Part shown: one piece after another, positions 1,686 through 17,766 of the stretch
Layout of the letters: the number at the start of each line of letters is the position of its first letter
Numbering within the stretch: position 1 is the first letter of the stretch
Notes under the pieces: generated by a model
The model's database searches: none
Seen by the model: the letters and a program-made list of their open reading frames with translations, nothing else
What the model was told of the DNA's origin: nothing
Made by a program: the position numbers and the translations under genes
IMG/VR virus record: IMGVR_UViG_3300030430_000495
Coordinates: 1 to 22,110 of that record
DNA: 22,110 bases
Strand: one strand, 5' to 3'
Source: a virus

Positions 1686-3574
1686 TACCCTCTCCTACCA
1701 TCAGGCCGCATATCCACACGAGTGGCACCCAGTTTCCACGTAACCCCAGCGGCTGTAGACTCCACCTTAAACGACATCTGCCTGCCACGTAATCTGGTAA
1801 ATACCTGTCCAGTAAACTGCTCTATGGGGGCTGTAGCTGTTCTAGTAACAGTAGCGTTACTGTTGCCCCCTACTGAGGCAGGGTTGTAACGGCCTGAACC
1901 AGAGTTTTCTAAGGGGTTCAACGTCAGCACGGCAGCGGGTGAAGCTGCTGTAGATCCTTCAAATGTTACGTCCGGTAACATCTTATTGACCAGCATAAAG
2001 CGATCACCGTCATCTAGGTCAAATTGGGTAGAAGTTATGCTGGCAGTAAACGCTGTGGCTACACCTGTCTCCTTATCGTCTACACCTGTCTCGTGGTTTA
2101 CAAGTCTATTGTTAAACGTAGCAGCTATAGGGAAGTCCCTAAGATCGGAATCAAGCCATGCAGAGCGAGACAGATTACCGAAATACCACACATTTTCTAC
2201 ATAGTTGTAGATTACATAGCGATCATTTTGAGTTACACCAGCAGAACAATAGAACCACCATATCTCATCAAACTCTTCGTTTGATCCTGCTACCACCTGA
2301 TCGTATTGATCAGTGTTGAAATCGTCAAACACATAGCTACGCACATCACAGGGCAACGTCTTAACCGTACCATCGTAGTAGTAAAACTTGTTTGTACCCA
2401 TCCAGTAGGCGATGTTGTTTGAATATACCGCTGCATTAGGGCTGGCTATCGTGAGGTTAGACCCCAAAAGCGTTGCACCCCACACTATCGGTGCGCCTAA
2501 ATACTGTAGGCCATATAGCGCGGCATCAGTCCAAATCAGTATCTCTTGTCTGGCTTGCACAGCTTGCACGATCTCTGTGCCTTCAGACAGACTAAGACTT
2601 CCCGCTTGCGTCAGTGCCGTAGGGTTCCACTCAGCTACGTCTTCTTGATCTGACCAGCGTATCAGCATGGGATCTTGGACTGCACTGCCTATGGGGTTTG
2701 CGCCCATACAGAAAGCAAAACGAAATATGTCAGAAACAAAAGCCACGTTAGCTACCGTAGGGACTTGACTAGCGCCAGCTAAAGAACTTACTAACACTGC
2801 TCTAGTAGTTACACCGTTAGTGGCATCCCACAAGAACGGTGCGCTTCCTCTGCTAAGAAAGAACAAGTCCTCACCAAAGTTAGCCTGACTCCAGAGCCGC
2901 ATACCTGCTAACGTGGAGCCACCTGTGCCCCATGTGCCACTACCCCAACGACCCGCACTCCATCCGGTAAAAGGCACAGCGATCTCGTTGCCTGTATTTA
3001 TCTGGTATGCACCCACAGTGCTGGAGCCGCCATTACCTGAATCAGAGCTATTTGCTGTTACCGTGCTTCCGCTGGTGTCTTTGGCTTCTACTGTGTAAGA
3101 GTTGTCATTGACTATGGTGGCTATTTGATACTCTTGATTTAGCACAGCAGCGGTAATGTTACCGCCTAGAGAAGCGGCACCGGAGAAAGTTACAAAGTCA
3201 TTTTGGAGTGCACCGTGTGCTGTGTCGGTCACGGTTAGTGTGGCATCGCCGTTTACAGCGGCAAAAGTTACGTCACCAGCGGCTGTAGTAGACCGAAGCG
3301 GCGTAACGTCATAATAAGCACCGCCACGCTCTATGTAGTATTTTAAGTGCGTACCTACAGAGACTAGATTTTGTAGGCTAAGAGTGGCCCAGTTAAACAA
3401 CGAGCGTGCTACACCTAGGAAAGTAGCAGTAGAGATCTGCTCCCAACCTCCAATCTTTTGAGGTAGTCCCCGTCTGAACCGCACCTTATCAATGTCGTAC
3501 CACTGCCCTTCAGCAGCATATCGAGTGCTTTCTCGGTTTACCCCTGATTTAAACTGTAATTTTCTAACTGGCAT
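1685..3574 (-). CDS. Tail nozzle / packaged-DNA stabilisation-like protein
   Basis: A 629-residue beta-rich protein. The chosen start is the ATG at 3574, because a GAGG site lies 5 bases before it and it follows the endolysin stop by 7 bases; an in-frame start 8 codons upstream (3598) would overlap the endolysin gene. The N-terminus (MPVRKLQFKSGVNRES, then KVRFRRGLPQKIGGWEQ near residues 30-47) resembles the opening of tail hub or DNA-stabilisation proteins of short-tailed phages of the P22 gp10 type, which close the end of the tail. Repeated aromatic strand motifs (YKTLPCDVRSYVF-type region, EIWWFYCSAG, YVIYNYVENVWYFGNL) suit a propeller-like hub. No enzymatic motif is seen. Assignment rests on remembered family resemblance and on the short-tailed gene set around it. 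Confidence 0.65.
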   Translation of the reverse strand: MPVRKLQFKSGVNRESTRYAAEGQWYDIDKVRFRRGLPQKIGGWEQISTATFLGVARSLFNWATLSLQNLVSVGTHLKYYIERGGAYYDVTPLRSTTAAGDVTFAAVNGDATLTVTDTAHGALQNDFVTFSGAASLGGNITAAVLNQEYQIATIVNDNSYTVEAKDTSGSTVTANSSDSGNGGSSTVGAYQINTGNEIAVPFTGWSAGRWGSGTWGTGGSTLAGMRLWSQANFGEDLFFLSRGSAPFLWDATNGVTTRAVLVSSLAGASQVPTVANVAFVSDIFRFAFCMGANPIGSAVQDPMLIRWSDQEDVAEWNPTALTQAGSLSLSEGTEIVQAVQARQEILIWTDAALYGLQYLGAPIVWGATLLGSNLTIASPNAAVYSNNIAYWMGTNKFYYYDGTVKTLPCDVRSYVFDDFNTDQYDQVVAGSNEEFDEIWWFYCSAGVTQNDRYVIYNYVENVWYFGNLSRSAWLDSDLRDFPIAATFNNRLVNHETGVDDKETGVATAFTASITSTQFDLDDGDRFMLVNKMLPDVTFEGSTAASPAAVLTLNPLENSGSGRYNPASVGGNSNATVTRTATAPIEQFTGQVFTRLRGRQMSFKVESTAAGVTWKLGATRVDMRPDGRRG

Positions 3575-3581
3575 TGTGTCC

Positions 3582-4007
3582 TCACTCTGCGTACTCACCG
3601 CTAGAGATCATGTCAGTCAACTCTAAAGCACGACCACCTACTTGTTTAGCCCACCTAGAATCAAGGAATTCAGTAGCTGCCACTTTGTATTCGCCTTCTT
3701 CCATAGCAGCCAAAGCACGCTTAAAAAGACGTAATCTAGTTGCGCCTAGGTTAAAAGATATATCAACCATTGCATCTCTACGAACATCATCAAGATCGTT
3801 AAACCACGGATACTCAGCAGCTAACTCTTTAATTACCCTCTCAACATCATTCTGCAAGAGGTAGTCAATCTCATCATCAGACAGCCCCATGCCACCTGCT
3901 TGATCTATGTTACGACCTACACCTACAGTAATCTTGCCCTCTGAGCATTCGTAAGCATGAGTTTCAACACCCTCATGTCGTTTAAGCATGGTCAGTAGCT
4001 TGTCCAT
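3582..4007 (-). CDS. GH24 endolysin (T4-type lysozyme)
   Basis: A 141-residue N-acetylmuramidase that would cleave the glycan strands of peptidoglycan at lysis. The GH24 catalytic region is clear: HEG with Glu12, then Cys21, then Thr27 in GKITVGVGRNID, keeping the spacing of T4 lysozyme Glu11-Asp20-Thr26. The usual Asp is a Cys here, an alternative found in active members of the family. The rest matches the family: helical lobe with DISFNLGATRLRLFKRAL near residues 82-99 and a length close to T4 lysozyme (164). No signal peptide or membrane anchor is present, so release depends on a holin. Its ATG overlaps the stop of the holin gene by one base (TAATG), a classic holin-endolysin pair. Confidence 0.93.
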   Translation of the reverse strand: MDKLLTMLKRHEGVETHAYECSEGKITVGVGRNIDQAGGMGLSDDEIDYLLQNDVERVIKELAAEYPWFNDLDDVRRDAMVDISFNLGATRLRLFKRALAAMEEGEYKVAATEFLDSRWAKQVGGRALELTDMISSGEYAE

Positions 4008-4480
4008 TAGTTACCCCTGTTATTGCTAGAGCCGAAGAAGAACGCTGAAATACCAGATATCAGCCCTCCTAGATATCCTAAGATAATGTTGGCTAGAGCA
4101 TCGTCTACTGCTTCAGCGCGAAAGGTCACAAGGAATATATAGAATAAAAAGCCCAGCAAGCTGATTATGGCAAATATCTTAGGCGTGGGGTCTTCACCAA
4201 ATATTTCTCTGGCAGACTGCCTGTCCTGCACTTCTAGTTTGAAGTTTTCTAGGTCAATCTTACGTTCGTCTAGCGTTTTTTTGAATTCAGTTTCTGCTTC
4301 CTGCAATAGTTCTATAGAGCCGGGATTCTCCTCAATATATTTTTCTAGCTTGGCAGGGTCTGTAGTGTTAGACACGCCCAGCTTGTCTGCAACAAGTTTG
4401 ACAGCCATACCACCCATAGGCCCACCAATAGCTTTGCCCACAGTCGGGGCTAGTGAGGCTAACAATCCTTTTAATTTCAT
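4007..4480 (-). CDS. Holin (three-TM gene-transfer-agent type)
   Basis: A 157-residue membrane protein placed directly before the endolysin gene. It has an amphipathic, Gly-rich N-terminus (residues 1-35), a charged helical middle (about 40-95) and two strong hydrophobic segments near residues 102-120 (IFAIISLLGFLFYIFLVTF) and 129-149, ending in a short FFGSS-type polar tail. This layout matches the 'holin of 3TMs' family first described from gene transfer agents. It would form inner-membrane lesions that let the endolysin out. A GGTGGA ribosome site precedes ATG 4480. The family match is from pattern memory; the role is well supported by the neighbouring GH24 gene. Confidence 0.85.
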   Translation of the reverse strand: MKLKGLLASLAPTVGKAIGGPMGGMAVKLVADKLGVSNTTDPAKLEKYIEENPGSIELLQEAETEFKKTLDERKIDLENFKLEVQDRQSAREIFGEDPTPKIFAIISLLGFLFYIFLVTFRAEAVDDALANIILGYLGGLISGISAFFFGSSNNRGN

Positions 4481-5382
4481 ACTTCCACCATAAACGTGCT
4501 TTTGGGCGGGTTTTCTACCCTGTCTCTTGGGTATGGAGCGATACCTAAATGGTCAATCATTATACCGAAGCTCTCTATCTTTTGAGCAACCTTATCAATG
4601 TTTTGCCTCGCATAAGCAGCAGTGCCGGGGTTGTCAAACCACATGTTGAACCTCCCACGGTTCTCGGTCACTCTTCCTTGGAGCCAGATGTGGTCACGCT
4701 CACCAATATCCGTTTCGATGTTAATTTCCCAGTCTTCCTCAGTATTGCCAAGTAGCGCCTCGAACCCCATCCATTCTTCTTCACCGCTGTTGATCTCCCC
4801 GTCAGTAAAGTCCACATAGGTCTCACCTAATTTTACATCTTCGAGGTCTCTTGCTTCTGGGGCATCCCACGCCCACGAGTTCTTTTCAGTATCGTACCTG
4901 TTTATCTCGTACTCTATCTGCGGCAGGTCTTCTAGGTCTATCTCGCCAAATACTGAGTTGTCTCCGTTTTCTATGGCTGCTTTAAGATCAGTAAGCAGCT
5001 TTTCTACATCTGTACTGTTGTCTATCTTGGCAGATGTGTTTTCAAAAACTCTGTCTAGTTTGGACTGCCTTGTAGGCTCTTGCCCTTCAGTTTTTGTTTC
5101 CTGTTTAGCTTCTGTCTTTTCAGGAGTCTCGGCTGACCTTACCCTGACACTAACATCTTCACCAGATACCTGTGCGAAGCTGCCGACTAAATTTACTTCG
5201 CCATTCTCAGTGCTTATTGTTACTGAGTTACCGTCTTCAGATACTGACCCTTTGACTGTCTGACCTTCAGGAAGATCAAGCTCTTTTACAGTGTCAGAAG
5301 AAAGCGTAACCGTAAGACTTTGAATGGTGTCTATCTGCGCTGCGTTGTAGTTCGCAATCGGGTTTTCTGGCGAGATAATCAT
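4477..5382 (-). CDS. Unknown acidic 301-residue protein, two beta domains joined by a linker
   Basis: The most upstream possible start in this frame is ATG 5382, since an in-frame TGA lies just before it. Residues 15-82 form a compact beta-rich region (LTVTLSSDTVKELDLPEGQTVKGSVSEDG broken by turns). Residues 83-115 are a disordered Glu/Lys/Thr linker. Residues 120-150 are helical. The C-terminal part (about 210-301) has strand, strand, helix, strand: DHIWLQGRVTENRGRFNMWF, then ARQNIDKVAQKIESFGIMID. This order loosely recalls the C-terminal domain of flagellar hook-length control protein FliK, but I cannot confirm it. The gene overlaps the holin by four bases, so it is co-translated with the lysis genes. 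No membrane segment or catalytic motif. Function unknown. Confidence 0.8.
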   Translation of the reverse strand: MIISPENPIANYNAAQIDTIQSLTVTLSSDTVKELDLPEGQTVKGSVSEDGNSVTISTENGEVNLVGSFAQVSGEDVSVRVRSAETPEKTEAKQETKTEGQEPTRQSKLDRVFENTSAKIDNSTDVEKLLTDLKAAIENGDNSVFGEIDLEDLPQIEYEINRYDTEKNSWAWDAPEARDLEDVKLGETYVDFTDGEINSGEEEWMGFEALLGNTEEDWEINIETDIGERDHIWLQGRVTENRGRFNMWFDNPGTAAYARQNIDKVAQKIESFGIMIDHLGIAPYPRDRVENPPKSTFMVEV

Positions 5383-5420
5383 CCATCATAGCGTCAACAA
5401 ATAGATTCTCGTTAGAGCAT

Positions 5421-5648
5421 CTATGTTTCGGATGACTTTCCCTCAGTATCCTCCTCGACGATTTCGTCGATGGTTTCGCATACATCAGGAACAGCTATGC
5501 CTGTAGTTACTTCAGTAGCTACACGACCAACAGCCCGAATGCCCTTGTAAACACCAGAGCAATACAGGTCTTTGTTAGCAATCATGTCTTCAGAGATTGT
5601 GCACCCAGAAAATACAAATAAACTAATTAATACGGGAATCAATTTCAT
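5421..5648 (-). CDS. Small outer-membrane-type lipoprotein
   Basis: A 75-residue protein with a lipoprotein signal peptide: MK, a hydrophobic stretch (LIPVLISLFVF) and lipobox FSGC, giving a mature protein of 60 residues with lipidated Cys16. Thr at +2 favours outer-membrane sorting. Two more cysteines (30 and 57) could form a disulfide in the periplasm. The tail after residue 58 is strongly acidic. The start overlaps the end of the lipase gene by 26 bases. In a lysis region, a short lipoprotein suggests an outer-membrane spanin subunit (Rz1-like), but the Pro-rich character of Rz1 is missing, so superinfection-related or other periplasmic roles are equally open. Confidence 0.8.
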   Translation of the reverse strand: MKLIPVLISLFVFSGCTISEDMIANKDLYCSGVYKGIRAVGRVATEVTTGIAVPDVCETIDEIVEEDTEGKSSET

Positions 5649-6390
5649 CTTCTATCCTTTTTAACTCTTGCATTTCGCCTTTACTTAGAGGCACAACTTT
5701 CTTAGCTTCTCGCTCTTGACCATCAAGAAACTCTTTTAACCTTTCTTTGTAACCCGCCATCATATGATCGCTTATTCGATCTTTCAGCCCACCTCTGTCA
5801 GCAACTCTAGTGTCTTTGCTGGGGTTTATATAGTCCGGGCCGGTATTGCTAAAATACAACATAGTCTGTGACTTGGAAGGGCCGTAGCAAAGCCTCGGCA
5901 CACGAGCCACTATGTCGCTACCATGCACGCAGGATATTTGGTTATCCAAAGTCATTGGCTTTTTAAATCCTTTGAAAAACACGTTTGGTTTGCCAAAGGT
6001 AATTAAGTTTATGTTGTCGTGTTTGCCGTTCAGCATAGAGGCCGACAACTCTGCCAACGCCCCTCCTAAGCTATGTCCTGTTATAAGAGTGCGTTTCTTA
6101 GGGTCTATGTGTTCTTTAACCTCTCTCCATACAGACTTGTGTGCCAGAGTGAACCCTCCGTGACACAGCCTACCCGCATATGGCAGCGGTATGACATTAA
6201 TGTCAGTCAGCACATCCATCTTTTGCTCTGTGCCTCGGAAAGCTATGATGTCTATGGACTTACGTTTTGCTACATATACTGTAGTTGATGTCCATCGGCT
6301 TTCTATTTTGATAGCCTCGTCGTTGCTATCGTTGTAAGCCTTCATCGCCCAAGAACAGGCCATGTTAAGAAGCACAGGATCAAGTTTCAT
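5623..6390 (-). CDS. Class 3 lipase (alpha/beta hydrolase)
   Basis: A 255-residue alpha/beta hydrolase of the lipase class 3 family, predicted to hydrolyse acyl esters of glycerolipids. The nucleophile elbow is GHSLGG with Ser107, preceded by strand TLIT. The likely acid is Asp159 in HGSDIVARVP, and the likely base is His209 in SDHMMAGY. The N-terminal IIAFRGTE (48-55) matches the oxyanion-side strand of this family, and CHGGF (76-80) its usual follow-on. Residues 215-255 are a charged helical tail. There is no signal peptide, so the enzyme would be cytoplasmic until the holin opens the membrane, unless it is packaged in virions. It overlaps the upstream membrane-protein gene by ATGA and the lipoprotein gene by 26 bases, tying it to lysis or envelope disruption. 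Confidence 0.9.
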   Translation of the reverse strand: MKLDPVLLNMACSWAMKAYNDSNDEAIKIESRWTSTTVYVAKRKSIDIIAFRGTEQKMDVLTDINVIPLPYAGRLCHGGFTLAHKSVWREVKEHIDPKKRTLITGHSLGGALAELSASMLNGKHDNINLITFGKPNVFFKGFKKPMTLDNQISCVHGSDIVARVPRLCYGPSKSQTMLYFSNTGPDYINPSKDTRVADRGGLKDRISDHMMAGYKERLKEFLDGQEREAKKVVPLSKGEMQELKRIEDEIDSRIN

Positions 6391-6874: not shown

Positions 6875-9481
6875 TTACCCTTTAATCATAAGTGTTGTGT
6901 TAGCTACTGCCTTGCCAGCAGTCACGCTAGAAGACGTTGTAGAAAGTGTGCCATCGTCTTGGACGTAGTAGGTGCTGCCGATTGTGAAATTGGGAATACT
7001 ACTGGATAACGTGCCTACAATTCCTGTGCCATAGTTTGAGTTACCATTATCTTTAAACGCTATGACAATTTTATTGTTGTCAGTGTCTTTAGTTATGGCA
7101 ATCTCTCCACCACTTGTAGAGGTAGAGTTAAAAACAACAGCATCACCAAACGTAATTGTGTCGCCGTCCACTGTGCCTATCTTAGTCTTACCTTTATTTG
7201 AATCGTTGGTGTCGTTGTAACCTATGATAACTTTATTTGTAGTAGAGTCATAAAACGCTGGTGTGCCGTGGAACGCTACATTGGTACTGTTCCAAGTAAC
7301 CGCTGTGCCAACGCTAATTGATGTGCCGCTGACTGTACCTATGATTGCTTTCCCAATGTTGGAGTTATCCGCATCGCTAAAAAATATTACCGATTTGTTT
7401 GCATTAGCGTCATAAGCCACAGCAGTTCTAAGGGCATTTGCTGCAACTCCCGTGGTGAATGATCCAACACTCATGCTTGTGCCTGATATTGTTACAACAC
7501 AAGCGTCCCCACGATTACTGTTATCTCCATTTGCAAAGAACACAACGTGCTTATTCGCGGTAGAGTCATAAGCAATCGCTATATATACGGATGAATCATT
7601 ATTAAGTGCAGATGCTCCACCAAAACTTATACTTGTTCCAGAAACCGTACCTACTTGTGCAGTAAGATAACCACTATTACCATTGTCTTGGTAAACAAAT
7701 AATGTTTTTTGTGCGTTTGCATCATAAGAGGCTTCGACATACATAGCTTCAGCAGATTCAAATACTACTTCTGTACCGAAAGAGATGCTGGTTCCTGATA
7801 CAGTACCGACTATTGCTGTACCATAGTTGCTATTGCCTACGTCCCTATACCCAATAACTACTTTTCCAGCGGAAGCATCAAAAACTGCGGTCACATAGTC
7901 TGTGCTACCACTATTAAATTCCACAGCACTACCATAGCTTATCGACGTACCAGACACAGTACCCACGATAGCTTTTCCTTTGTTTGAGTCGCCATAATCT
8001 GCGTAAGCTATTACGATCTTGTCATTTACTGTGTCGTAGACAATCGCCGGGTATCTCGAATTACCCGTATTATAAACTGCCTCACTTCCGTAACTCGCTG
8101 TCGTTAGTGGCGGCAACAACGACCCGTTGGTAATCACCCCGCCCTCGACAACCACTTCGCCTGATGCAGAGTTGTTGATAGCTTGGTTAGTAATCCCTAC
8201 GAAGTCAGCAAAGTTTGAATATTGGGAGCGATAAGCAATTGCTGTTCCGGCGCTTGCGTTGCCGTCATCTTGGTAGGAAAAAACCACCAGCTTGTTTGTC
8301 GAGTCATAGGCAGCTACCGCTGGAGTTCGCCCTACAGTAGCGGCCTCGAAGACTGCCGGAGTGCTAAAAGTTAGACTCGTGCCGCTTACGGTGGCTTCAA
8401 CATAAGTGCCGTAAGTAGAGTTACCGGAGTCCCCGTAGCCGATTACAGTCTTACCCGCCTCCACATTATATGCAGCTTGCATTTGTACACTGCCTGTGGA
8501 AGCAGACTCGAAAACTGCTGCACTGCCAAAGCTAATGCTCGTACCGCTTACTGTTCCGACGATGCCTGTGCCATAGCCACTATTACCTTGGTCGGAGTAA
8601 GCTATAACAATTTTATAATTAGCTGAATCATAAGCTGCCGTCTGATGTTCTGTTTGAGCCGATTCAAAAACCACCGGAGAACCGAAAGATATAGATGTTA
8701 CATTTACCGTCCCTACAACCGCTGTTCCATAGTTTGAATTTCCTGCGTCCCGATAAACAATTACGGTTCTATCTGCATTAGAATCATAAACAGCAACGGG
8801 GAAGTGAGTATATCCAGACTCAAACTCTTGAGGCGTACCGAAGCTCAGGCTCGTACCGGATATTGTACCGACCACCGCATAACCATCACCGCCATCGCTA
8901 TCGTTCGTGTATGCAATCACAACCCTGTTACTTGTAGAATCAAAAGCGCAGGTAGGAGAAAATGTGACATCAGTTCCACTAAATACCGCAGATGAGCCAA
9001 ACGACACGCTAGTCCCCGATATGGTCGCGGTGACTGCTCTCCCGTAATTGTTAATAGTAGAATCGCGGAAAGCAATAACAAACTTGCCTTCTGTAGAGTT
9101 AAAGCAAACGGCAATACGTCTATACTGATCTCCGGTTACATTTCCTGAAAACTCAGCGGCAGTTCCAAAGCTGATGCTTGTACCGCTAATCGTGCCGACC
9201 ACAGCCATTCCTTTACTGGTGCTGCCGTCCTTGTACGCTACAAGGATTTTGTTGTTAGTCGAGTCATAAGCAATGGCATTATCAATAACACTTTGACCGG
9301 CTCCTGAGATATATGTCGCAGCGGTTCCTAGAGAGGATGATACTCCATCAACCGCAATCGCTTTTACAGTCCCGTCACTTAGTAAGGCAACAGTCTGACC
9401 TGTAGCCAGATTACCGCTGGCCGTTGCCGTTATAGCTTTTGCGCCAGCACCTGCTGGTAATAAATCGCTTAGATTGCTCAT
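6875..9481 (-). CDS. Two-propeller adhesin / tail-fibre-type protein (2 x 7 repeats in a shared scaffold)
   Basis: An 868-residue extracellular-type protein, ATGA-coupled to its paralogue upstream. Residues 1-46 are the anchor shared with the two preceding fibre genes (NLSDLLPAGAG, ASGNLATGQTVALLSDGTV). Residues about 52-420 hold seven 52-54-residue repeats, marked by AYDSTNNKIVIAY-type strands starting near 71, 125, 179, 231, 283, 337 and 391, each followed by GNSNYGTAVVGTVSGT and ISFG..VFES. Residues 425-460 are the first half of the cap module (NQAINNSASGEVVVEGGV). Seven more repeats follow (near 482, 534, 587, 638, 690, 743, 798), then the second cap half (IGSTYYVQDDGTLSTT to residue 868). 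Seven repeats per block suits a seven-bladed beta-propeller. Probably binds host surface glycans or protein; ligand unknown. Confidence 0.88.
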   Translation of the reverse strand: MSNLSDLLPAGAGAKAITATASGNLATGQTVALLSDGTVKAIAVDGVSSSLGTAATYISGAGQSVIDNAIAYDSTNNKILVAYKDGSTSKGMAVVGTISGTSISFGTAAEFSGNVTGDQYRRIAVCFNSTEGKFVIAFRDSTINNYGRAVTATISGTSVSFGSSAVFSGTDVTFSPTCAFDSTSNRVVIAYTNDSDGGDGYAVVGTISGTSLSFGTPQEFESGYTHFPVAVYDSNADRTVIVYRDAGNSNYGTAVVGTVNVTSISFGSPVVFESAQTEHQTAAYDSANYKIVIAYSDQGNSGYGTGIVGTVSGTSISFGSAAVFESASTGSVQMQAAYNVEAGKTVIGYGDSGNSTYGTYVEATVSGTSLTFSTPAVFEAATVGRTPAVAAYDSTNKLVVFSYQDDGNASAGTAIAYRSQYSNFADFVGITNQAINNSASGEVVVEGGVITNGSLLPPLTTASYGSEAVYNTGNSRYPAIVYDTVNDKIVIAYADYGDSNKGKAIVGTVSGTSISYGSAVEFNSGSTDYVTAVFDASAGKVVIGYRDVGNSNYGTAIVGTVSGTSISFGTEVVFESAEAMYVEASYDANAQKTLFVYQDNGNSGYLTAQVGTVSGTSISFGGASALNNDSSVYIAIAYDSTANKHVVFFANGDNSNRGDACVVTISGTSMSVGSFTTGVAANALRTAVAYDANANKSVIFFSDADNSNIGKAIIGTVSGTSISVGTAVTWNSTNVAFHGTPAFYDSTTNKVIIGYNDTNDSNKGKTKIGTVDGDTITFGDAVVFNSTSTSGGEIAITKDTDNNKIVIAFKDNGNSNYGTGIVGTLSSSIPNFTIGSTYYVQDDGTLSTTSSSVTAGKAVANTTLMIKG
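6998..8098 (-). repeat. Second seven-copy propeller repeat block of the 868-residue adhesin
   Basis: Seven diverged units of about 52 codons (about 156 bases), coding for residues 462-828. Each unit carries YD-x-x-x-N-K-x-V-I, GNSN-x-G and GTVSGTSIS elements. The block is inserted between the two halves of the cap module. Confidence 0.8.
8222..9328 (-). repeat. First seven-copy propeller repeat block of the 868-residue adhesin
   Basis: Seven units of 52-54 codons, coding for residues 52-420. The block opens with the LGTAATY strand that the last unit lacks, as expected if the first and last blades are closed by strands from both ends (Velcro closure of a propeller). Confidence 0.8.
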
Positions 9482-10932
9482 GTGCTAAAATCCAGATTGA
9501 TGCTTGTGGCTGACATTGCTTTACCCGCCTCTACACTAGGATTACCCGCTGTGGTAGAAAATGTTCCGTCAGTTTGAACGTAGTAGATTGCTCCCGGCGT
9601 TAGACTGCTCAGTCCACTAGATGCAATCCCACCCTTCATCGTTATCTTGCCACTTGCTGCGTTGGATATAGCTGCGTCTGCTACGCCTAAGAAGTTTGTC
9701 GAGGTGAGGTTTGTATCAGTGTAGGCAGGGGTATAACTTATCCCTGTGCCGTAACTATTATTAGGAGTATCGTGGAAAGCTACGACAACTTTTTTGTCAT
9801 TTTCGTCGTAAGCTGATCCGGGGTCTTTTGCTTGCGCGTCTAAAGTAACCTCACTGCCTTTGGAAAAGGTAGTTCCGCTTACCGCACAGGGAATAGCAAT
9901 TAAAGCATCACCAGTTTTTTGGCTGACAAAAACCACCTTTTCTGCAATAGAATGATAAGAAACAGTTTGGTTTATGTCTGAAGCTGACGTAAATATGCTT
10001 ACTCTTGTTCCAAAGGATATAGAATTACCACTGATTGTCCCTATTTGGCCGTAAACGTCCGAACTCTCCCTGTAAGCGAGAAACATTCGGTCTGCACTAG
10101 AATCGTGTACTAACCTATTGGAGCGAGTTATTTCATTAGAAGCAAAAGTCGCCCCAGAGGCAACTACCGTAAGAGTAGTTCCTGAAACCGTGATTAGATT
10201 AACCCTACCGTTGCCGCCATTGCTAGTGCCGTACATGTACACTACCCTGTCGTTGGTAGAGTCATACGCTATTGCGGGTTGGAAAACAGCTTCGCTAGTC
10301 AGCGTAGCTGTAGTGCCTACGGTGGCTGTAGTTCCGCTCACTGATACAGTTCTTGCATAACCATAATCTTGTCCAGCACCTTCTACCCAAGCAATAACCG
10401 ATTTGCTGGCTGCTGAGTCGTAGGTAATGACAGAATATTCAACGCCGCTCGTATTAGTTGAACATTGAACCTTTGTGCCGAAGGAAATTGATGTACCTGA
10501 GACAGACCCCGCTATAACGTGCGAGCCAGTTTGATTAAAGCCAATTACAAATGCGTCTGCACTAGAATCATAAGCTACTCCGCACTCAGTGGTGCTGCCG
10601 CTCTCAAAAACAACAGGTGTGCCATAAGTCAAAGCTCCATTAGAACAGGTGGCGACCACCGCAGTGCCATAGTTAGAGTTGCCTCCATCTTGATACACGA
10701 TAACAAGTTTACCGTTACCATATGCAACAGCGTTGTGATTTGTCTCCGCAGACTCAAATACAGCTTCACTACCAACAGCTTCGCTCTGTGATGTAGCGTC
10801 AGGGGCAACTTGAGATGCAGTTCCATTAGTATTCAGAACAACAGGCTTACCCTGCGCTATAGTTCCACTTGCGGTAAAATCTAATTGTTTACTAGCCGCA
10901 CCTGCTGGTAAAAGATCGCTTAAATTAGTCAT
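9478..10932 (-). CDS. One-propeller adhesin / tail-fibre-type protein (7 repeats)
   Basis: A 484-residue paralogue of the next gene downstream. Residues 1-45 are the shared anchor (NLSDLLPAGAASK, ASGTIAQGKPVVLNTNGT). Residues 52-403 hold seven repeats of about 50-52 residues, with strand markers near 69, 119, 170, 222, 275, 326 and 374 (such as VAYGNGKLVIVYQD, AYDSTNDRVVYMY). Residues 411-484 are the intact cap (AAISNAASGKITMKGGI, then AIYYVQTDGTFSTTAG and VEAGKAMSATSINL). Repeats are more diverged than in the 868-residue protein. Start ATG 10932 overlaps the preceding gene by 8 bases. A role as receptor-binding or decoration protein is inferred from repeat type and position; no ligand can be named. 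Confidence 0.87.
   Translation of the reverse strand: MTNLSDLLPAGAASKQLDFTASGTIAQGKPVVLNTNGTASQVAPDATSQSEAVGSEAVFESAETNHNAVAYGNGKLVIVYQDGGNSNYGTAVVATCSNGALTYGTPVVFESGSTTECGVAYDSSADAFVIGFNQTGSHVIAGSVSGTSISFGTKVQCSTNTSGVEYSVITYDSAASKSVIAWVEGAGQDYGYARTVSVSGTTATVGTTATLTSEAVFQPAIAYDSTNDRVVYMYGTSNGGNGRVNLITVSGTTLTVVASGATFASNEITRSNRLVHDSSADRMFLAYRESSDVYGQIGTISGNSISFGTRVSIFTSASDINQTVSYHSIAEKVVFVSQKTGDALIAIPCAVSGTTFSKGSEVTLDAQAKDPGSAYDENDKKVVVAFHDTPNNSYGTGISYTPAYTDTNLTSTNFLGVADAAISNAASGKITMKGGIASSGLSSLTPGAIYYVQTDGTFSTTAGNPSVEAGKAMSATSINLDFST
9724..10779 (-). repeat. Seven-copy propeller repeat block of the 484-residue adhesin
   Basis: Seven diverged units of about 50-52 codons, coding for residues 52-403, inserted between anchor and cap at the same site as the first block of the 868-residue paralogue. 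Confidence 0.78.
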
Positions 10933-11341
10933 CAGTTATCTCTACCCAAGAAGTTGTTTCTTCGTCCCACAAGTAGTTCTTCTCATCATCAGGACGAGCT
11001 ACAGGAGGGTCGAAATCACAAGTTTCTTCATTAAATGTCCAAGATGGATAACCATTCTCAGCCCAATACTCTTTTAGACTATTTTGTAAAGTTGTTTTTT
11101 CTTCTTCAGTTATGTCATTAAAGTGGTGAACGTCTGTAATTACCTCTCCACTCCACTCATAAGTACAACCTGCGTATGTTCGATATGGCCCAGACGAAGG
11201 TTTCTCTACTCTTATAAACTTAGCAAAGGACGAAGGAAGATTATCAGTATCTATGTCTGGAAACGCTTGGCGAAAGTTATCCTCAATAATGGGATGCTCG
11301 AAAGGCTGACCATCGACAACCTTAATATAATAGTTCATCAC
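10925..11341 (-). CDS. Possible tail-fibre assembly/chaperone-type protein
   Basis: A 138-residue acidic protein that follows the polyglycine adhesin gene with an ATGA overlap and precedes the one-propeller gene with an 8-base overlap. It opens NYYIKVVDGQPFEHPIIEDN and ends with the Trp-rich stretch NYLWDEETTSWVEI, a layout reminiscent of small phage tail-fibre assembly proteins and host-range chaperones that are encoded right after fibre genes. Two start codons in tandem (ATGATG) are possible. Two cysteines (about residues 59 and 108) are present. No membrane segment. The chaperone role is inferred from position and composition only. Confidence 0.72.
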   Translation of the reverse strand: MMNYYIKVVDGQPFEHPIIEDNFRQAFPDIDTDNLPSSFAKFIRVEKPSSGPYRTYAGCTYEWSGEVITDVHHFNDITEEEKTTLQNSLKEYWAENGYPSWTFNEETCDFDPPVARPDDEKNYLWDEETTSWVEITDD

Positions 11342-12519
11342 AAGTTACCTGTGTTCGTGCTTGGGAACGCACGGTTTGGCCCCCAGATAATTCTCACATA
11401 TCCGTTTGTGCCATCTCCTCCCCACAGACCGCCGCTATTTGAACCAGCGCCACCGCCGCCACCGTACGATCCTCCCGGTCTTCCACCAGAATAACCGGAG
11501 CTTGATGCGTCATTACCACCTGATCCTCCGCGTCCTCTAAAAGATGCTTTGGCAGAATCTGAGAACCCACCAGTATAAGTTCCTCCAGCACCACTAGAGC
11601 CTTCACCAAGAGCGTTAACACCACCGCCTCCACCGCCGCCAATAGCACCCCCACCACCAGCGCCACCGCCTCCACCGCCGCCAGCGCCATCGCCACCATC
11701 TCTGTCTGAACTACCACCACCATTACCGCCAGCACCAGAGTATCCTCCAGCGCCGCCTCCACCGCCTCCATCGTTCCCGTTCGTGAGACAATCGCCGCCT
11801 TGACCACCGCCATCACCTGCGTAGTTTCCACCACCACCTGTAGTTCCGCCTCCAAGTCCGGCGACAGTGCTTGTGCTTATAAAGTAACTGTCTCCTCCCG
11901 CCTCACCAGCACCCGTTACTGAAGGGTATCCATCTCCTTTAGCTCCTACCACTACGGTATAAGAAGAACCCGGAGTCACAGAGATATTGTTTTTCCAACC
12001 AAGACCTCCACCTCCACCACCTCGTGAACTATTCTGATCCGATCTGTTACCACTCGCTCCCGCACCTATGCACACCACAGACACAGACGTAACTCCTGCT
12101 GGAGCTACCCAAGAATTAGTTCCCGAACTATACGCTGCCTGCCCAGTTACGGATAAAGCTCCCGGTGGGTCCATTAAGTTAAGCGTAGTAGCTGATATCG
12201 CTGTTCCCAGCTTGATACCGTTACTAGGTGATGTGGTAACAAGGCTCCCCGAATTGTTTGCATAGTAATCGGAACCAACAGTTAGACTTGATTGCGCTGT
12301 GTTGATTCCTCCGAAAAGGTCTATCTTTCCTGTAGCACCGTTACTTATGGCCTCCTGAGCCATTCCAATTAATCTTGCATAATTACCTCCGTCATATGCT
12401 TCAACCGTGCCATCAGTGTTAAGAGCCACGGCTTGCCCAGCGGTAATGTTTGTGGACGCAGTAAGTTCAATGACATTTTGCCCAGAACCACTGGGCAACA
12501 GCTCAGAAAGATTACTCAT
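11338..12519 (-). CDS. Polyglycine-rich adhesin with the shared anchor-cap scaffold
   Basis: A 393-residue protein. Residues 1-40 are the shared anchor (MSNLSELLPSGSGQ, ASTNITAGQAVALNTDGTV) and residues 48-115 the cap (EAISNGATGKIDLFGGI, VGSDYYANNSGSLVTT), joined with no propeller between them. Residues 130-200 are a beta region with a Trp (NSWVAPAGVTSVSVVCIGAG) that often precedes glycine-rich adhesin domains. Residues 203-370 are dominated by glycine runs separated by Ala, Ser and Asp. The end is GYVRIIWGPNRAFPSTNTG. Polyglycine domains of this kind form the receptor-binding tip in T-even gp38-type adhesins, so surface recognition is likely. TAATG coupling with the upstream gene fixes the start. 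Confidence 0.85.
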   Translation of the reverse strand: MSNLSELLPSGSGQNVIELTASTNITAGQAVALNTDGTVEAYDGGNYARLIGMAQEAISNGATGKIDLFGGINTAQSSLTVGSDYYANNSGSLVTTSPSNGIKLGTAISATTLNLMDPPGALSVTGQAAYSSGTNSWVAPAGVTSVSVVCIGAGASGNRSDQNSSRGGGGGGLGWKNNISVTPGSSYTVVVGAKGDGYPSVTGAGEAGGDSYFISTSTVAGLGGGTTGGGGNYAGDGGGQGGDCLTNGNDGGGGGGAGGYSGAGGNGGGSSDRDGGDGAGGGGGGGAGGGGAIGGGGGGGVNALGEGSSGAGGTYTGGFSDSAKASFRGRGGSGGNDASSSGYSGGRPGGSYGGGGGAGSNSGGLWGGDGTNGYVRIIWGPNRAFPSTNTGNL

Positions 12520-13486: not shown

Positions 13487-14380
13487 TTAAGCGGCAGTAT
13501 CTATGTCTATCCAATTAGGTGTCTGACTATCTTCTACGTTAGTCCAGCCACCCCTAGTTATTGTTCCAACTGCTCCTGTGCCTGATACACCTGTAGGAAT
13601 TATTGTTTCATCTACGTCAGTATCTAAACTTCCTATCGCACCTGTGCCTGAGACCCCTGTTACTGCTGGAACTACCGTAGCGCCGTCTGCGCCTATTTGT
13701 CCTGTTCCAAGAACCCCTGTAGGAGCTACATTTTTATCATATACAGGTAAGGCTGTCCCTATTGCTCCTGTACCTACAACTCCCGTTACTATTGGCGCAG
13801 GGGTGTCTGTAACTGTTCCTACTGCACTTGTACCGCTAACTCCACTAACTGTGCGAGTAATCGCTATGGTTGTGGTGCCTATGCCACCAGTGCCAGCTAC
13901 ACCCGTTGGAACAAGGAACTCCCCAACAGTTGTGGCTACAGTTCCTATCGCGCCTGTGCCTGATACACCTATGGGGATTACAATGTCATCTACTACGACA
14001 ACAAAACCACCCATTTGTCCGGTGCCAGACACTCCTGTCAGAGTAATCGAGCCACTATAATTAGTAGCTACCGTCCCTACTGCACCTGTGCCTGCAACTC
14101 CTGTAGGAGCTACATTATCTCCCAGTACAATAACTGCGGTGCCTATGGCTCCTGTGCCGGTAACTCCTGTCGGAACTATATTCTTCGACAGACTTATTAC
14201 TACCGACCCTACGGCTCCGGTGCCAGCTACAGAGACATTACCATTGTCTCCCCAGCCTCCATCACCCCAAGCATTATTACCCCAAGTAGAGCCGAGGCTT
14301 ACGACAGTTCCTATGCCGTCCCAAGTGCCTGTCCCCCAAGTGCCATCACCCCATCCTCTTGTTGGTATGGTAAGAGACAC
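13487..14380 (-). CDS. Repeat-rich structural protein with 11 TGVSGTGAIG units
   Basis: A 297-residue protein starting at GTG 14380, preceded by an AGGA site 8 bases upstream. Residues 8-47 are Trp/Gly-rich (GWGDGTWGTGTWDGIG and TWGNNAWGDGGWGDNG). Residues 49-278 are eleven repeats of 20-22 residues with core consensus PTGVSGTGAIGT followed by a variable hydrophobic strand. The C-terminus (279-297) is a short acidic tail with two Trp. The regular spacing suggests a beta-solenoid or stacked-strand fibre shaft. It sits between small virion-type genes and the tail-fibre-like gene. No enzymatic motif. I know similar repeats from uncharacterised marine phage proteins but no defined function. Confidence 0.82.
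   Translation of the reverse strand: MSLTIPTRGWGDGTWGTGTWDGIGTVVSLGSTWGNNAWGDGGWGDNGNVSVAGTGAVGSVVISLSKNIVPTGVTGTGAIGTAVIVLGDNVAPTGVAGTGAVGTVATNYSGSITLTGVSGTGQMGGFVVVVDDIVIPIGVSGTGAIGTVATTVGEFLVPTGVAGTGGIGTTTIAITRTVSGVSGTSAVGTVTDTPAPIVTGVVGTGAIGTALPVYDKNVAPTGVLGTGQIGADGATVVPAVTGVSGTGAIGSLDTDVDETIIPTGVSGTGAVGTITRGGWTNVEDSQTPNWIDIDTAA
13547..14236 (-). repeat. Eleven 60-66-base coding repeats
   Basis: The units encode the TG-V-x-GTG-x-[IVM]-G core. Most are 22 codons long and some 20 codons, with the difference in the variable segment between cores. The DNA copies are diverged, so this is an old expansion. Confidence 0.8.
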
Positions 14381-14859: not shown

Positions 14860-15147
14860 TTAAGTCTCCAATAGTTTCACAAGTTCCGAATGCCCAGCGG
14901 CTCGAAATTGGTTTGCAAGTGTGGTGCGGTCTGAACGTATAGCTTGTCTTATACCCTCAACCAACACCCCTCGAATCTGGTCTTTAAATGCTTCTGCCTG
15001 TTCTCTTACAACAGGATGGGAGTTTCCACCCACATATATAATCTTGTTCAGGATTTGTTCTGCCATCTCTTCGGCAGTAAAACCCCGTCCTGACACTGTG
15101 TTAACCGTAAAGTTACCTATCTGTAATGCGCCATTAGCACTCAGCAT
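14860..15147 (-). CDS. Small helical phage protein of unknown function
   Basis: A 95-residue protein that starts in a TAATG-type overlap with the second adaptor gene. The first 25 residues are polar with short strands (GALQIGNFTVNTVSGRG); residues 24-95 look fully helical and amphipathic (EEMAEQILNKIIYVGG, VVREQAEAFKDQIRGVLVEG, TTLANQFRAAGHSELVKLL). No named family is recognised. The position after the adaptor and before small tail proteins suggests a structural or assembly role. Confidence 0.75.
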   Translation of the reverse strand: MLSANGALQIGNFTVNTVSGRGFTAEEMAEQILNKIIYVGGNSHPVVREQAEAFKDQIRGVLVEGIRQAIRSDRTTLANQFRAAGHSELVKLLET

Positions 15148-15773
15148 TACACCACCTCACTTCTAGTTTGACCTGAACGATAGGTATCTTCACGTAATTT
15201 CCCATCCCCAAGGTTTTTCAACAGTAATATTGCTTGTTTATACAGTTCTGTATAAAGGTTAACCATGTCAGATTCACCTTTTTGAAAACGTATGGCTTCA
15301 ACTAAAGCTCCATTTAATAGCGCAGAGTCAAAGTTAGTGCCTAACCAAGTAGTTCCAGCGGTGACTATAGACTCTGGGTAATAAGCAAAATGTAGTTCAG
15401 CAGAAAAACTAGCGTTAGGTGTTGGGCCTACAATAAAAGTATCCGAATCAAATATAGCGTAGTGCTTGGGTATTCCTGTTGTTGCTGGGTTAGGATAAGC
15501 CTCACGTATAAAGTTAGAATCTTTGTCTAACAAGTATATGTAATCACTGCCGCTTATAATTGCTAGAGAATATACATACAGCATATTAGTCGGCATCGTT
15601 AAATACTTGTTACCAGACGTAAGCGTGCCGGTCTGGTTTTTACGAAGCGCAGGAAGCTGTACAGTGTTGTATATCTTTTGCTCTGCTTGTTGAGCAAACA
15701 TAGCGTGCTGATCTGCCGTAAACGTCTGTTCGCAGATGTCTTCTACATTTGCTTTTAGCTCAGTGTAATTCAC
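15147..15773 (-). CDS. Head-tail adaptor-like protein (second copy)
   Basis: A 208-residue protein beginning at GTG 15773, sharing one base with the TAG stop of the upstream 57-residue gene. The layout is that of connector/adaptor proteins of short-tailed phages: N-terminal helices (YTELKANVEDICEQTF, HAMFAQQAEQKIYNTV), a beta core at 45-130 (GTLTSGNKYLTMPTNML, then FIVGPTPNASFSAELHFAYY) and C-terminal helices (ALLNGALVEAIRFQKGE, NLYTELYKQAILLLKN). Such proteins dock under the portal ring and carry the tail. It is similar in plan to the 230-residue protein at 17766, from which it is separated by three genes. Confidence 0.7.
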   Translation of the reverse strand: MNYTELKANVEDICEQTFTADQHAMFAQQAEQKIYNTVQLPALRKNQTGTLTSGNKYLTMPTNMLYVYSLAIISGSDYIYLLDKDSNFIREAYPNPATTGIPKHYAIFDSDTFIVGPTPNASFSAELHFAYYPESIVTAGTTWLGTNFDSALLNGALVEAIRFQKGESDMVNLYTELYKQAILLLKNLGDGKLREDTYRSGQTRSEVV

Positions 15774-15955: not shown

Positions 15956-16606
15956 CTACACTATAGTTATGTTGCCGACCATAGAGCTATGACTTGTGCA
16001 TTGATACACTAAACTTGTATCACTTGGCTCATGTGGCACGATAAATTGTGTTAAACCCGTTGTAGAATTATAGTTTTCTGTAACCCCCGTTGTAAAAGCA
16101 GAGCCACCGTCTGAGGTTCTAATCTGCAACGGGTGGCTTGATACATTAGCAGTATTATCTATAAGGTAAGTATGACCTTTATAGAAAGTGAAGTTAGGGT
16201 TGTTACCAGCCGTAGCACCGGGGCCGGTAAAAGTAAATGCAGAAGTCCCCACCACGCCTGCCGTATATTTAGTTACAGGCCCAGTTGTTTCATCATTTAG
16301 CCTAATCCACGCCCCACCATGTGCAAAATAAAGTCCTCCCGTTGCATGAACGTGAGCCACAGCACCATGATAAGTAGACGCACTGGGTAAATCACTCAAA
16401 GCCGCATAATAAAATACAATTTTATTAGCACCGGAACTCACATCTAATAAACCGCTAGAGTCTATAATGTCCGTAAGAGTCGTACCATTTCCAAGCGCGG
16501 CATAAACTTCATTAAAGTTGTCATTGATTTTATCCGCACCCGCACGAAGAGTATCGCCTGTTCCGTCATTGGCAGAAGAACCTATGCCTACTGTTTGTTT
16601 TGCCAT
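15956..16606 (-). CDS. Virion structural protein with C-terminal cupredoxin-like domain
   Basis: A 216-residue protein. Residues 1-38 (QTVGIGSSANDGTGDTLRAG, then DKINDNFNEVYAALG) are the opening found in many phage appendage proteins. Residues 60-105 are a small beta domain. Residues about 125-216 look like a cupredoxin fold: a strand and turn at NPNFTFYKGHTYLID, His158 in SSHPLQI, and the C-terminal signature YQCTSHSSMVGNITIV with Cys203, His206 and Met209. This parallels the plastocyanin type 1 copper ligands (one distant His, then Cys, His, Met followed by VG-x-I-x-V). Copper binding is not shown; the domain may be used only as a stable fold. It starts 3 bases after the zinc-ribbon gene. 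Confidence 0.8.
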   Translation of the reverse strand: MAKQTVGIGSSANDGTGDTLRAGADKINDNFNEVYAALGNGTTLTDIIDSSGLLDVSSGANKIVFYYAALSDLPSASTYHGAVAHVHATGGLYFAHGGAWIRLNDETTGPVTKYTAGVVGTSAFTFTGPGATAGNNPNFTFYKGHTYLIDNTANVSSHPLQIRTSDGGSAFTTGVTENYNSTTGLTQFIVPHEPSDTSLVYQCTSHSSMVGNITIV

Positions 16607-16609
16607 GCT

Positions 16610-17071
16610 CTATCCTTCGTCGAATGTCTTTGCGGTTGAGTCAAGCGTAACTGAAGTGCTGTCAAATCTAGCCGCGCTTGTTGCTGAAATACTTACAGAC
16701 CCTATATTTCCTACAGCGTTTACACTACCGCTTGCTTGCACCACATTACCTGAGACAACTCCTGATAATGTGACTTCACCCACTTTGCCAAACCCAACCA
16801 CTATGGAAGGGTCTATTGGCTCTATGTGCGCCCTGCTTGCTGCTAACTCCGCAAAATCCGGTCTAGGATTTCTTATAGCCTGCGGATCATCTACCGGAAA
16901 CTCACCTAATCTATTTTGTGGATGATCCGGGTTCCAACACTCAGGACACGCTTTTAATTCTGTAACCTTGTTCTTTTTTACTAAGTTTCTAAGTTCTCTC
17001 AGTTCATACTGAAAGCCGCATATATCACATATAGCTAACGCTCTCTGGCTAGAAGCAAAACGCTGTGTCAT
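16610..17071 (-). CDS. Zinc-ribbon structural protein
   Basis: A 153-residue protein with an N-terminal four-cysteine zinc ribbon: Cys15 and Cys18 in ICDICGFQY, Cys42 and Cys45 in KACPECWNPDHPQ. The segment between them is helical and basic. Residues 90-153 are a regular series of beta strands (VGEVTLSGVVSGNVVQ, AVGNIGSVSISATSA) rich in Val, Ser and Gly, as in small virion proteins. It lies 2 bases after the first adaptor gene and 3 bases before the cupredoxin-like gene, so it is probably part of the head-tail joint or a nearby appendage. A DNA-binding role for the ribbon is possible but not shown. Confidence 0.75.
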   Translation of the reverse strand: MTQRFASSQRALAICDICGFQYELRELRNLVKKNKVTELKACPECWNPDHPQNRLGEFPVDDPQAIRNPRPDFAELAASRAHIEPIDPSIVVGFGKVGEVTLSGVVSGNVVQASGSVNAVGNIGSVSISATSAARFDSTSVTLDSTAKTFDEG

Positions 17072-17073
17072 GT

Positions 17074-17766
17074 CTACCTCACGCCATACATGCGCGGCAC
17101 TAAGCTAATAGATGCCTTTTCTCTATCCTCTTGTGCAGCTAAATCAAACTGTCTTTCATACTCTGTCTGTAGCATGGGTATACGTGGTGCTAATTCTGGA
17201 TCTTTCTGCGCTATGTAATATGCAAGCCCTGCAACAAGACAAGGCAAAAATCTAAAATTTACATCCGCAGTTTCTACGCCACTACCTGCGTCCTGTATGC
17301 GCCGCATTCTGTAGTATTTTAAAACATACGTGCTAGACGCATCTGGAACAGGCCATACAGTAACGGAAGGATTGGCTTGTCCTCTGTCTATGTATATCTG
17401 TATAGGGCGTCCTTGTGTTAACTTGTTAGGTATACTTGCGTAAGTAGAAACGCTTATACGAGATATACTAAGATCAGACTGAGTATACACATCACCGCTA
17501 CCAGTGCGTATAACATGCTCAAGCAAATCAATGGTATCCGCCGGTAGGTCATACGACGAAGTTCCTTGTACCAAACTGATGGTGCCTTCATCTATAGTCC
17601 ACATGTTGATACCACGGTTCTGCCACTCAATAGTGAGTAGGTTCATTGACCTACGTGCAGTACGCAAGTCATAACCCGAACGCATCTCACGGCCAGCACG
17701 TTCCCACGCTTCTTCAGCGATCTCCGTGAAGTCCATATTGAATGTGGCAGTTCCCGAGGTAGCCAT
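17074..17766 (-). CDS. Head-tail adaptor / tail tubular protein A-like
   Basis: A 230-residue protein that begins MATSGTATFNMDFTEIAEEA. It has N-terminal helices (EIAEEAWERAGREMRSGYDL, ARRSMNLLTIEWQNRGINMW), a central beta region (ISLVQGTSSYDLPADTIDLL, then PIQIYIDRGQANPSVTVWPV) and C-terminal helices (RFLPCLVAGLAYYIAQKDPE, IPMLQTEYERQFDLAAQEDR). This is the plan of adaptor or tail tubular A-type proteins of short-tailed phages, which form the ring between portal and nozzle. The start is 3 bases after the stop of a 55-residue basic gene. The family call is from residue pattern and from the neighbouring genes. Confidence 0.75.
   Translation of the reverse strand: MATSGTATFNMDFTEIAEEAWERAGREMRSGYDLRTARRSMNLLTIEWQNRGINMWTIDEGTISLVQGTSSYDLPADTIDLLEHVIRTGSGDVYTQSDLSISRISVSTYASIPNKLTQGRPIQIYIDRGQANPSVTVWPVPDASSTYVLKYYRMRRIQDAGSGVETADVNFRFLPCLVAGLAYYIAQKDPELAPRIPMLQTEYERQFDLAAQEDREKASISLVPRMYGVR

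Follow-up and report, generated by a model that had tools for sequence, protein, structure and literature searches.

A predicted type-1 copper site in the cupredoxin-like domain of a marine phage tail protein

The stretch of viral DNA considered here, referred to below as the window, is 22,110 nucleotides long, and the record that it makes up is probably a fragment. At positions 15956-16606 its minus strand encodes P0001, a protein of 216 amino acids, and the question posed by this locus is whether a structural protein of a phage carries, near its C-terminus, a metal site of the kind found in the blue copper proteins. Type-1 copper sites have characteristic ligand sets, and the original prediction had picked out His158, Cys203, His206 and Met209 as a candidate set within this frame. 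Translation confirms all four on the minus strand: His158, the predicted first copper ligand, is encoded at 16133-16135; Cys203, the predicted thiolate ligand and sole cysteine of the protein, at 15998-16000; His206, the predicted second histidine ligand, at 15989-15991; and Met209, the predicted axial ligand, at 15980-15982. The sequence VGNITIV follows Met209 at the C-terminus of the protein.

Within a single sequence, such a motif is only weakly surprising. A loose form of it, H-x(25-60)-C-x(2-4)-H-x(2-4)-M, is present in just 1 of the 106 window frames of at least 60 amino acids, and when these frames were shuffled, 289 of 2000 rounds produced it at least once among the 106, while shuffling of P0001 alone produced it in 6 of 2000. 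The reality of the site therefore rests on conservation across relatives. Our reading, which we regard as probable, is that P0001 is a three-module tail component with a cupredoxin domain that harbors a complete type-1 ligand set and is most likely clamped by copper.

Modules and genomic setting of P0001

The first module of P0001, residues 3-43 (16478-16600, minus strand), resembles the N-terminus of the T4 proteins gp9 and gp10. It scores 32.8 bits against Pfam family PF07880 (E 8.9e-8), above the curated cut-off of 25, with a match that spans just 41 of the 175 profile positions, and it also matches T4 gp10 in the PDB (E 3.9e-6). The last module is the cupredoxin-like domain, residues 111-216 (15959-16276, minus strand). 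The range proposed earlier for it, 15956-16230, does contain the site, but the domain starts slightly before that range, at about residue 111. Residues 107-216 match phrog_677 with an E-value of 1.1e-48 over profile positions 301-409 of 412, that is, at the end of a family annotated as a cyanophage "baseplate wedge tail fiber protein connector". Between these two ends, some 55 residues form a module with matches to tail fibre families, and inspection of the protein by eye reveals no evident signal peptide. The original prediction had assigned the gene to a virion protein of the head-tail region; the virion part of that assignment is retained as likely, and the location is better given as a tail or fibre connector, in view of the gp9/gp10-type N-terminus, the phrog_677 match and the position of the gene between two SU10-type adaptors.

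The middle module, residues 51-108 (16283-16456, minus strand), has no relative that we found in Pfam or among solved structures. It contains four histidines, His80, His85, His87 and His96, in the pattern YHGxxAHVHxxxxxYFAH, which includes one HxH (His85 and His87). Among 130 distinct relatives, all four are present in 105 and none in 25, with no partial sets, and after an 80% identity cut all four are found in 17 of 25 sequences and none in the other 8. A shared metal site would be expected to give such an all-or-none pattern, and the middle module is a possible second metal site; two old subfamilies could also be the source of the pattern.

The two neighbors of P0001 are adaptor proteins of the SU10 type, both recognized by PF24175 and both on the minus strand: adaptor 1 lies upstream at 17074-17766 (E 4.4e-14) and adaptor 2 downstream at 15147-15773 (E 1.5e-19). 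The arrangement recurs among 80 close viral loci: of the 69 that extend far enough upstream, 67 have adaptor 1 there, and all 64 that extend far enough downstream have adaptor 2. The adaptor ring of SU10 is described as the docking place of its long tail fibres (PMC9509320), so a tail-docked role for P0001 is reasonable, and we infer that the protein would be docked on the tail.

Several further features of this region may be recorded. A neighbor of 153 amino acids at 16610-17071 (minus strand) opens with a zinc-ribbon-like pattern, CDIC...CPEC, whose Pfam match (E 0.24) falls below the cut-off, and its equivalents in pelagiphage HTVC023P and Roseobacter phage CRP-901 are without the cysteine pairs. 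Three genes on the minus strand, at 6875-9481, 9478-10932 and 11338-12519, share by eye the start M[ST]NLS[DE]LLP[AS]G and then diverge downstream into repeats or glycine-rich sequence, in the manner of modular fibre proteins. The protein encoded at 13487-14380 (minus strand) is built of TGVxGTGAIGT repeats, and similar repeats occur in gp53 of CRP-901, beside the adaptor of that phage.

As judged by the capsid, the adaptor and a nozzle-like protein, the nearest cultured relatives are the pelagiphages HTVC023P and HTVC027P, the Roseobacter phages CRP-901 and CRP-902, phage DSL-LC04 and cyanophage MinM2. By gene order, assessed by eye, the gene is absent from the equivalent place in HTVC023P, DSL-LC04 and CRP-901, and a search of the whole records of these three phages with the domain profile A5 gave no match at E<=1, while the control search matched 6 of 6 records. 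With both gene and domain missing in three isolate relatives, the cupredoxin-domain gene has the look of a part gained by particular lineages.

The domain alone is more widely distributed. In a tblastn search it matched 324 of 50,697 phage records, which are named, without exception, for Synechococcus, Prochlorococcus or other cyanophages or for 'Marine' viruses. Its position varies, being C-terminal in gp9-like proteins and N-terminal in a 668-amino-acid frame of the T7-like phage P-GSP1. The BFVD returned 57 matches at E<=0.001; among those with names, connectors and tail fibres of cyanophages are frequent. A scan of genome contigs gave two partial matches only, to the middle module and to the N-terminus. 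Since all four ligands are present in each complete relative that was inspected, as set out below, many marine viruses may carry the predicted copper site in their tails.

Other architectures were also encountered. In one close relative (L019, 2511-3515, plus strand), adaptor 1 itself carries an extra N-terminal cupredoxin-like domain with all four ligands. Phage P-SSM2 (L089) has, at 2830-6114, a fibre-like frame of 1098 amino acids with two cupredoxin-like domains, the C-terminus of which we take to resemble an intramolecular chaperone of the S74 type. In S-CAM1 (L092), a frame at 2305-4560 that is annotated as a proximal tail fibre shows subtilisin-like motifs by eye (GTSCATP) together with pieces of the cupredoxin domain in an unusual order, and S8/S53 proteins of the ACG-2014 phages are among the BFVD fold matches.

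Conservation of the predicted ligands

Relatives were fetched with query fragments that end before His158, in order to avoid circularity. Three such ligand-blind scans covered 80, 47 and 80 loci, these being the best 80 of 548, 47 of 47 and the best 80 of 513 candidates, and 3 of the 207 loci were set aside because contig ends cut the domain. All four ligands are present in each of the 204 complete domains (79/79, 46/46 and 79/79 for the individual scans), always in the order His...Cys-x(2-4)-His-x(2-4)-Met that typifies the type-1 cupredoxins and that P0001 itself displays; the original prediction had asked for conservation of these residues in homologues, and it holds throughout. The spacing is C-x2-H-x2-M in 180 domains, C-x4-H-x2-M in 23 and C-x2-H-x3-M in 1. 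The 23 longer loops (CTVPSHASM) all belong to one scan of 79 complete domains (L176-L255; for example L208, L226 and L247), and their Cys-His spacing is azurin-like.

A less redundant view was obtained from 169 rows, namely 81 and 79 ligand-blind domains, 8 phage domains and that of the window, from which 83 biased and 7 duplicate rows had been left out. An 85% identity cut reduced these to 26 domains, in which just five of the 107 columns are invariant: H158, Y201, C203, H206 and M209. The chance that five random columns would cover the four named beforehand is about 1e-6, a figure to be read with the columns being non-independent and Cys and His prone to conservation. In 22 sequences below 70% identity, the four ligands are again invariant, along with two tyrosines (one of them two residues before the cysteine), the proline after the first histidine and two glycines. 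A further scan of viral contigs with the pattern YQCTxH yielded 80 loci that are biased for Cys and His and are therefore excluded from the ligand-blind counts, although they did enter the structure alignment A5 and the cysteine count; another redundancy cut, at 86% identity, kept 66 of 243 rows. The conservation of the ligands supports the view that the site matters, as far as comparison of sequences can indicate. It also makes improbable an alternative entertained in the original prediction, namely that the fold alone is used, for stability, since the ligand residues would then be expected to drift.

The invariant cysteine might owe its conservation to a covalent bond. Near-full domains contain one cysteine in 209 of 259 cases and two in 50 of 259, and the window protein as a whole contains one, so there the invariant cysteine is without an intramolecular disulfide partner; a disulfide was rejected on these counts as the reason for the invariance. 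A disulfide between subunits, or some other covalent cross-link within a fibre trimer, with the histidines and methionine incidental, would accord with one unpaired cysteine per chain, but would leave the invariance of His158, His206 and Met209 unexplained, and we give it hardly any credence.

In one respect the site departs from the usual pattern. Blue copper proteins usually, though not universally, have an asparagine after the first histidine; P0001 has Pro159 in this place, as do 25 of the 26 non-redundant domains at the equivalent position. A His-Pro pair at the first ligand is familiar from the multicopper oxidases (HPxHxH). This replacement of the second-sphere asparagine bears on the identity of the metal, and the four residues might bind zinc, silver, iron or adventitious copper, as a structural clip, in place of blue-site copper. 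The bacterial cytoplasm has little free copper, and P0001 is without an evident export signal, which also speaks for another metal. In addition, phage fibres are reported to bind iron by histidine in HxH motifs (PMC11705849). Against this, His, Cys, His and Met succeed one another as in cupredoxins, and both this order and the varying length of the loop are features of type-1 copper sites; we consider a different metal unlikely. Copper remains our preferred reading, and it is supported by the ligand set, the fold and the nearest matches.

Predicted fold and the link to blue copper proteins

AlphaFold2 was run on the domain with an alignment of 67 rows and no templates, and the resulting model has a pLDDT of 87.6 and a pTM of 0.80; a poor model from the single sequence (pLDDT 41) was discarded. 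Foldseek against the PDB gave ten matches at E<=1e-3, all of them copper proteins (rusticyanin, nitrite reductase, AcoP and two-domain laccases). The query-normalized TM-scores are modest, at 0.42-0.50 for these ten and 0.38-0.51 among the matches listed, and alpha-dystroglycan accounts for two non-copper rows among the 50 Foldseek matches listed. In VIA-align, 50 of the 50 matches listed are copper proteins. The best is to residues 24-131 of 2dv6 (Z 10.7, 2.3 A over 94 residues, 16% identity), the N-terminal blue-copper domain of Hyphomicrobium denitrificans nitrite reductase, followed by rusticyanin and small laccases. The matched laccase range is the first domain, which is not known to carry type-1 copper, and the laccase rows therefore support the fold only. 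The cupredoxin beta-sandwich is thus found as a predicted fold, and the cupredoxin domain first proposed for this protein is supported by the model and by both structural searches; AlphaFold2 may have been led to this fold by the motif itself.

Profile comparison gives a similar picture. Profile A5 matches nitrite reductases, plastocyanin and amicyanin in the PDB at E-values from 8e-6 to 1e-3 (best 8.3e-6), and the four predicted ligands align with the known ones (His, Cys, His, Met) in plastocyanin 2plt; a smaller profile, A1, recovers the same copper families. PF00127 (Copper-bind) matches 31 of 67 family members at E<=0.1 (best 4.3e-5) and 3 of 11 in another set, and the amicyanin model matches 5 of 11, whereas the window domain alone matched no Pfam or NCBIfam model, these two included. 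Alignment of the domain profile to phage PetE with hhalign gives 85.7% (E 5.5e-6). When the ligand loop was removed, this value fell to 0.2%, and a loop-less profile, made from 16 sequences cut before the loop, retrieved no blue-copper protein from the PDB. The sequence similarity to copper proteins is therefore carried by the ligand loop, and convergent use of such a loop on a similar fold is compatible with these comparisons.

The loss of the sequence link along with the loop also fits a metal-free module, in which a cupredoxin-like beta sandwich would serve as a rigid fibre domain and packing or recent kinship would have kept the Cys, His and Met residues; cupredoxin-fold proteins without copper do exist. 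What argues against this is the retention of all four ligands in every complete relative, across 22 groups below 70% identity and with three different spacings, in an alignment where the majority of the remaining columns are variable, and we judge a metal-free module distinctly improbable.

Proposed role and comparison with known systems

The modules may be assembled into the following model. P0001 would be a tail part of a short-tailed marine phage, formed as a chain of three modules and present in the virion. Its first 43 or so residues probably anchor the protein, in trimeric form, to the tail close to the adaptor ring, and its last 106 or so would fold as a cupredoxin with His158, Cys203, His206 and Met209, most likely with a single copper ion bound in each chain. 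By fastening the final beta strand and its loop to the remainder of the domain, as happens in other cupredoxins, this metal would give a compact, rigid module, which may be displayed outside the tail, or on the next part of the fibre, where it could touch other parts of the virion or the cell surface. A role in stability or contact is preferred to one in electron transfer because no redox partner is visible. A much broader proposal, which we put forward tentatively and think doubtful, is that type-1 copper sites are borne on the tail fibres or connectors of numerous marine phages whose tail types are unrelated, in the present case beside a second metal site of four histidines, so that their virions carry copper and perhaps iron, exploit metal binding in adsorption or in a step gated by redox state or by metal, and form part of the organically bound copper of seawater.

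The closest relatives of the domain are the gp9-type connectors of cyanophages (phrog_677; for example in S-SSM4, ACG-2014d and P-RSM4), which have the same C-terminal domain with the four ligands and several of which share the T4 gp9/gp10-like N-terminus. Their carriers are T4-like cyanophages and the proteins are longer, whereas P0001 has only 216 amino acids and its gene, flanked on both sides by SU10-type adaptor genes, follows a gene order of the short-tail kind. Amicyanin and plastocyanin resemble the P0001 domain in predicted fold and in the order of His, Cys, His and Met. The motif had been called plastocyanin-like at the outset, and while the ligand order agrees with this, the C-x2-H-x2-M spacing is that of amicyanin and not of plastocyanin. 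In contrast to both, the P0001 domain belongs to a phage tail protein that has no evident signal peptide and has Pro in place of Asn after the first histidine. The best structural match, the N-terminal blue-copper domain of H. denitrificans nitrite reductase (2dv6, 6tfo), acts as a tethered electron donor of its enzyme, whereas no enzyme is seen alongside P0001.

Cyanophages also encode a plastocyanin proper, and a separate frame above the PF00127 cut-off is found in 5 of the 7 cyanophage records examined. These PetE frames have 108-144 amino acids, an apparent leader, PPHN and C-x2-H-x4-M, and they resemble the structural domain only distantly, through the ligand loop, while coexisting with it in the same genomes. 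P0001, in contrast, is a multi-module protein of 216 amino acids with HP and C-x2-H-x2-M, and the PetE frames lie elsewhere; its identification as a PetE auxiliary metabolic gene was accordingly rejected. Two published reports regard PetE of cyanophages as a metabolic gene (PMC3037559, PMC2984593). The present domain, which is plastocyanin-like at the ligand loop, is not to be counted in annotation as the photosynthesis gene petE.

A limited literature search found no description of a cupredoxin or a copper site in a phage virion. If copper is bound, short-tailed and T4-like marine phages alike would carry a blue-copper site in their virions, and phage adsorption could then be tied to trace metals in a directly testable way, much as in the hypothesis of iron in fibres. 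The nearest precedent for a metal site in a fibre is the iron reported to be bound by HxH motifs in the tail fibres of T4 (gp37) and of Alteromonas phage R22Y (PMC11705849), a type of fibre tip characterized as a trimeric needle in which HxH is repeated. Those fibres and P0001 share a fibre metal site, putative in the case of P0001, and the middle module of P0001 likewise has an HxH, in a single copy; the fibres described there use histidine only, with iron, whereas P0001 presents the different ligand set of His, Cys, His and Met.
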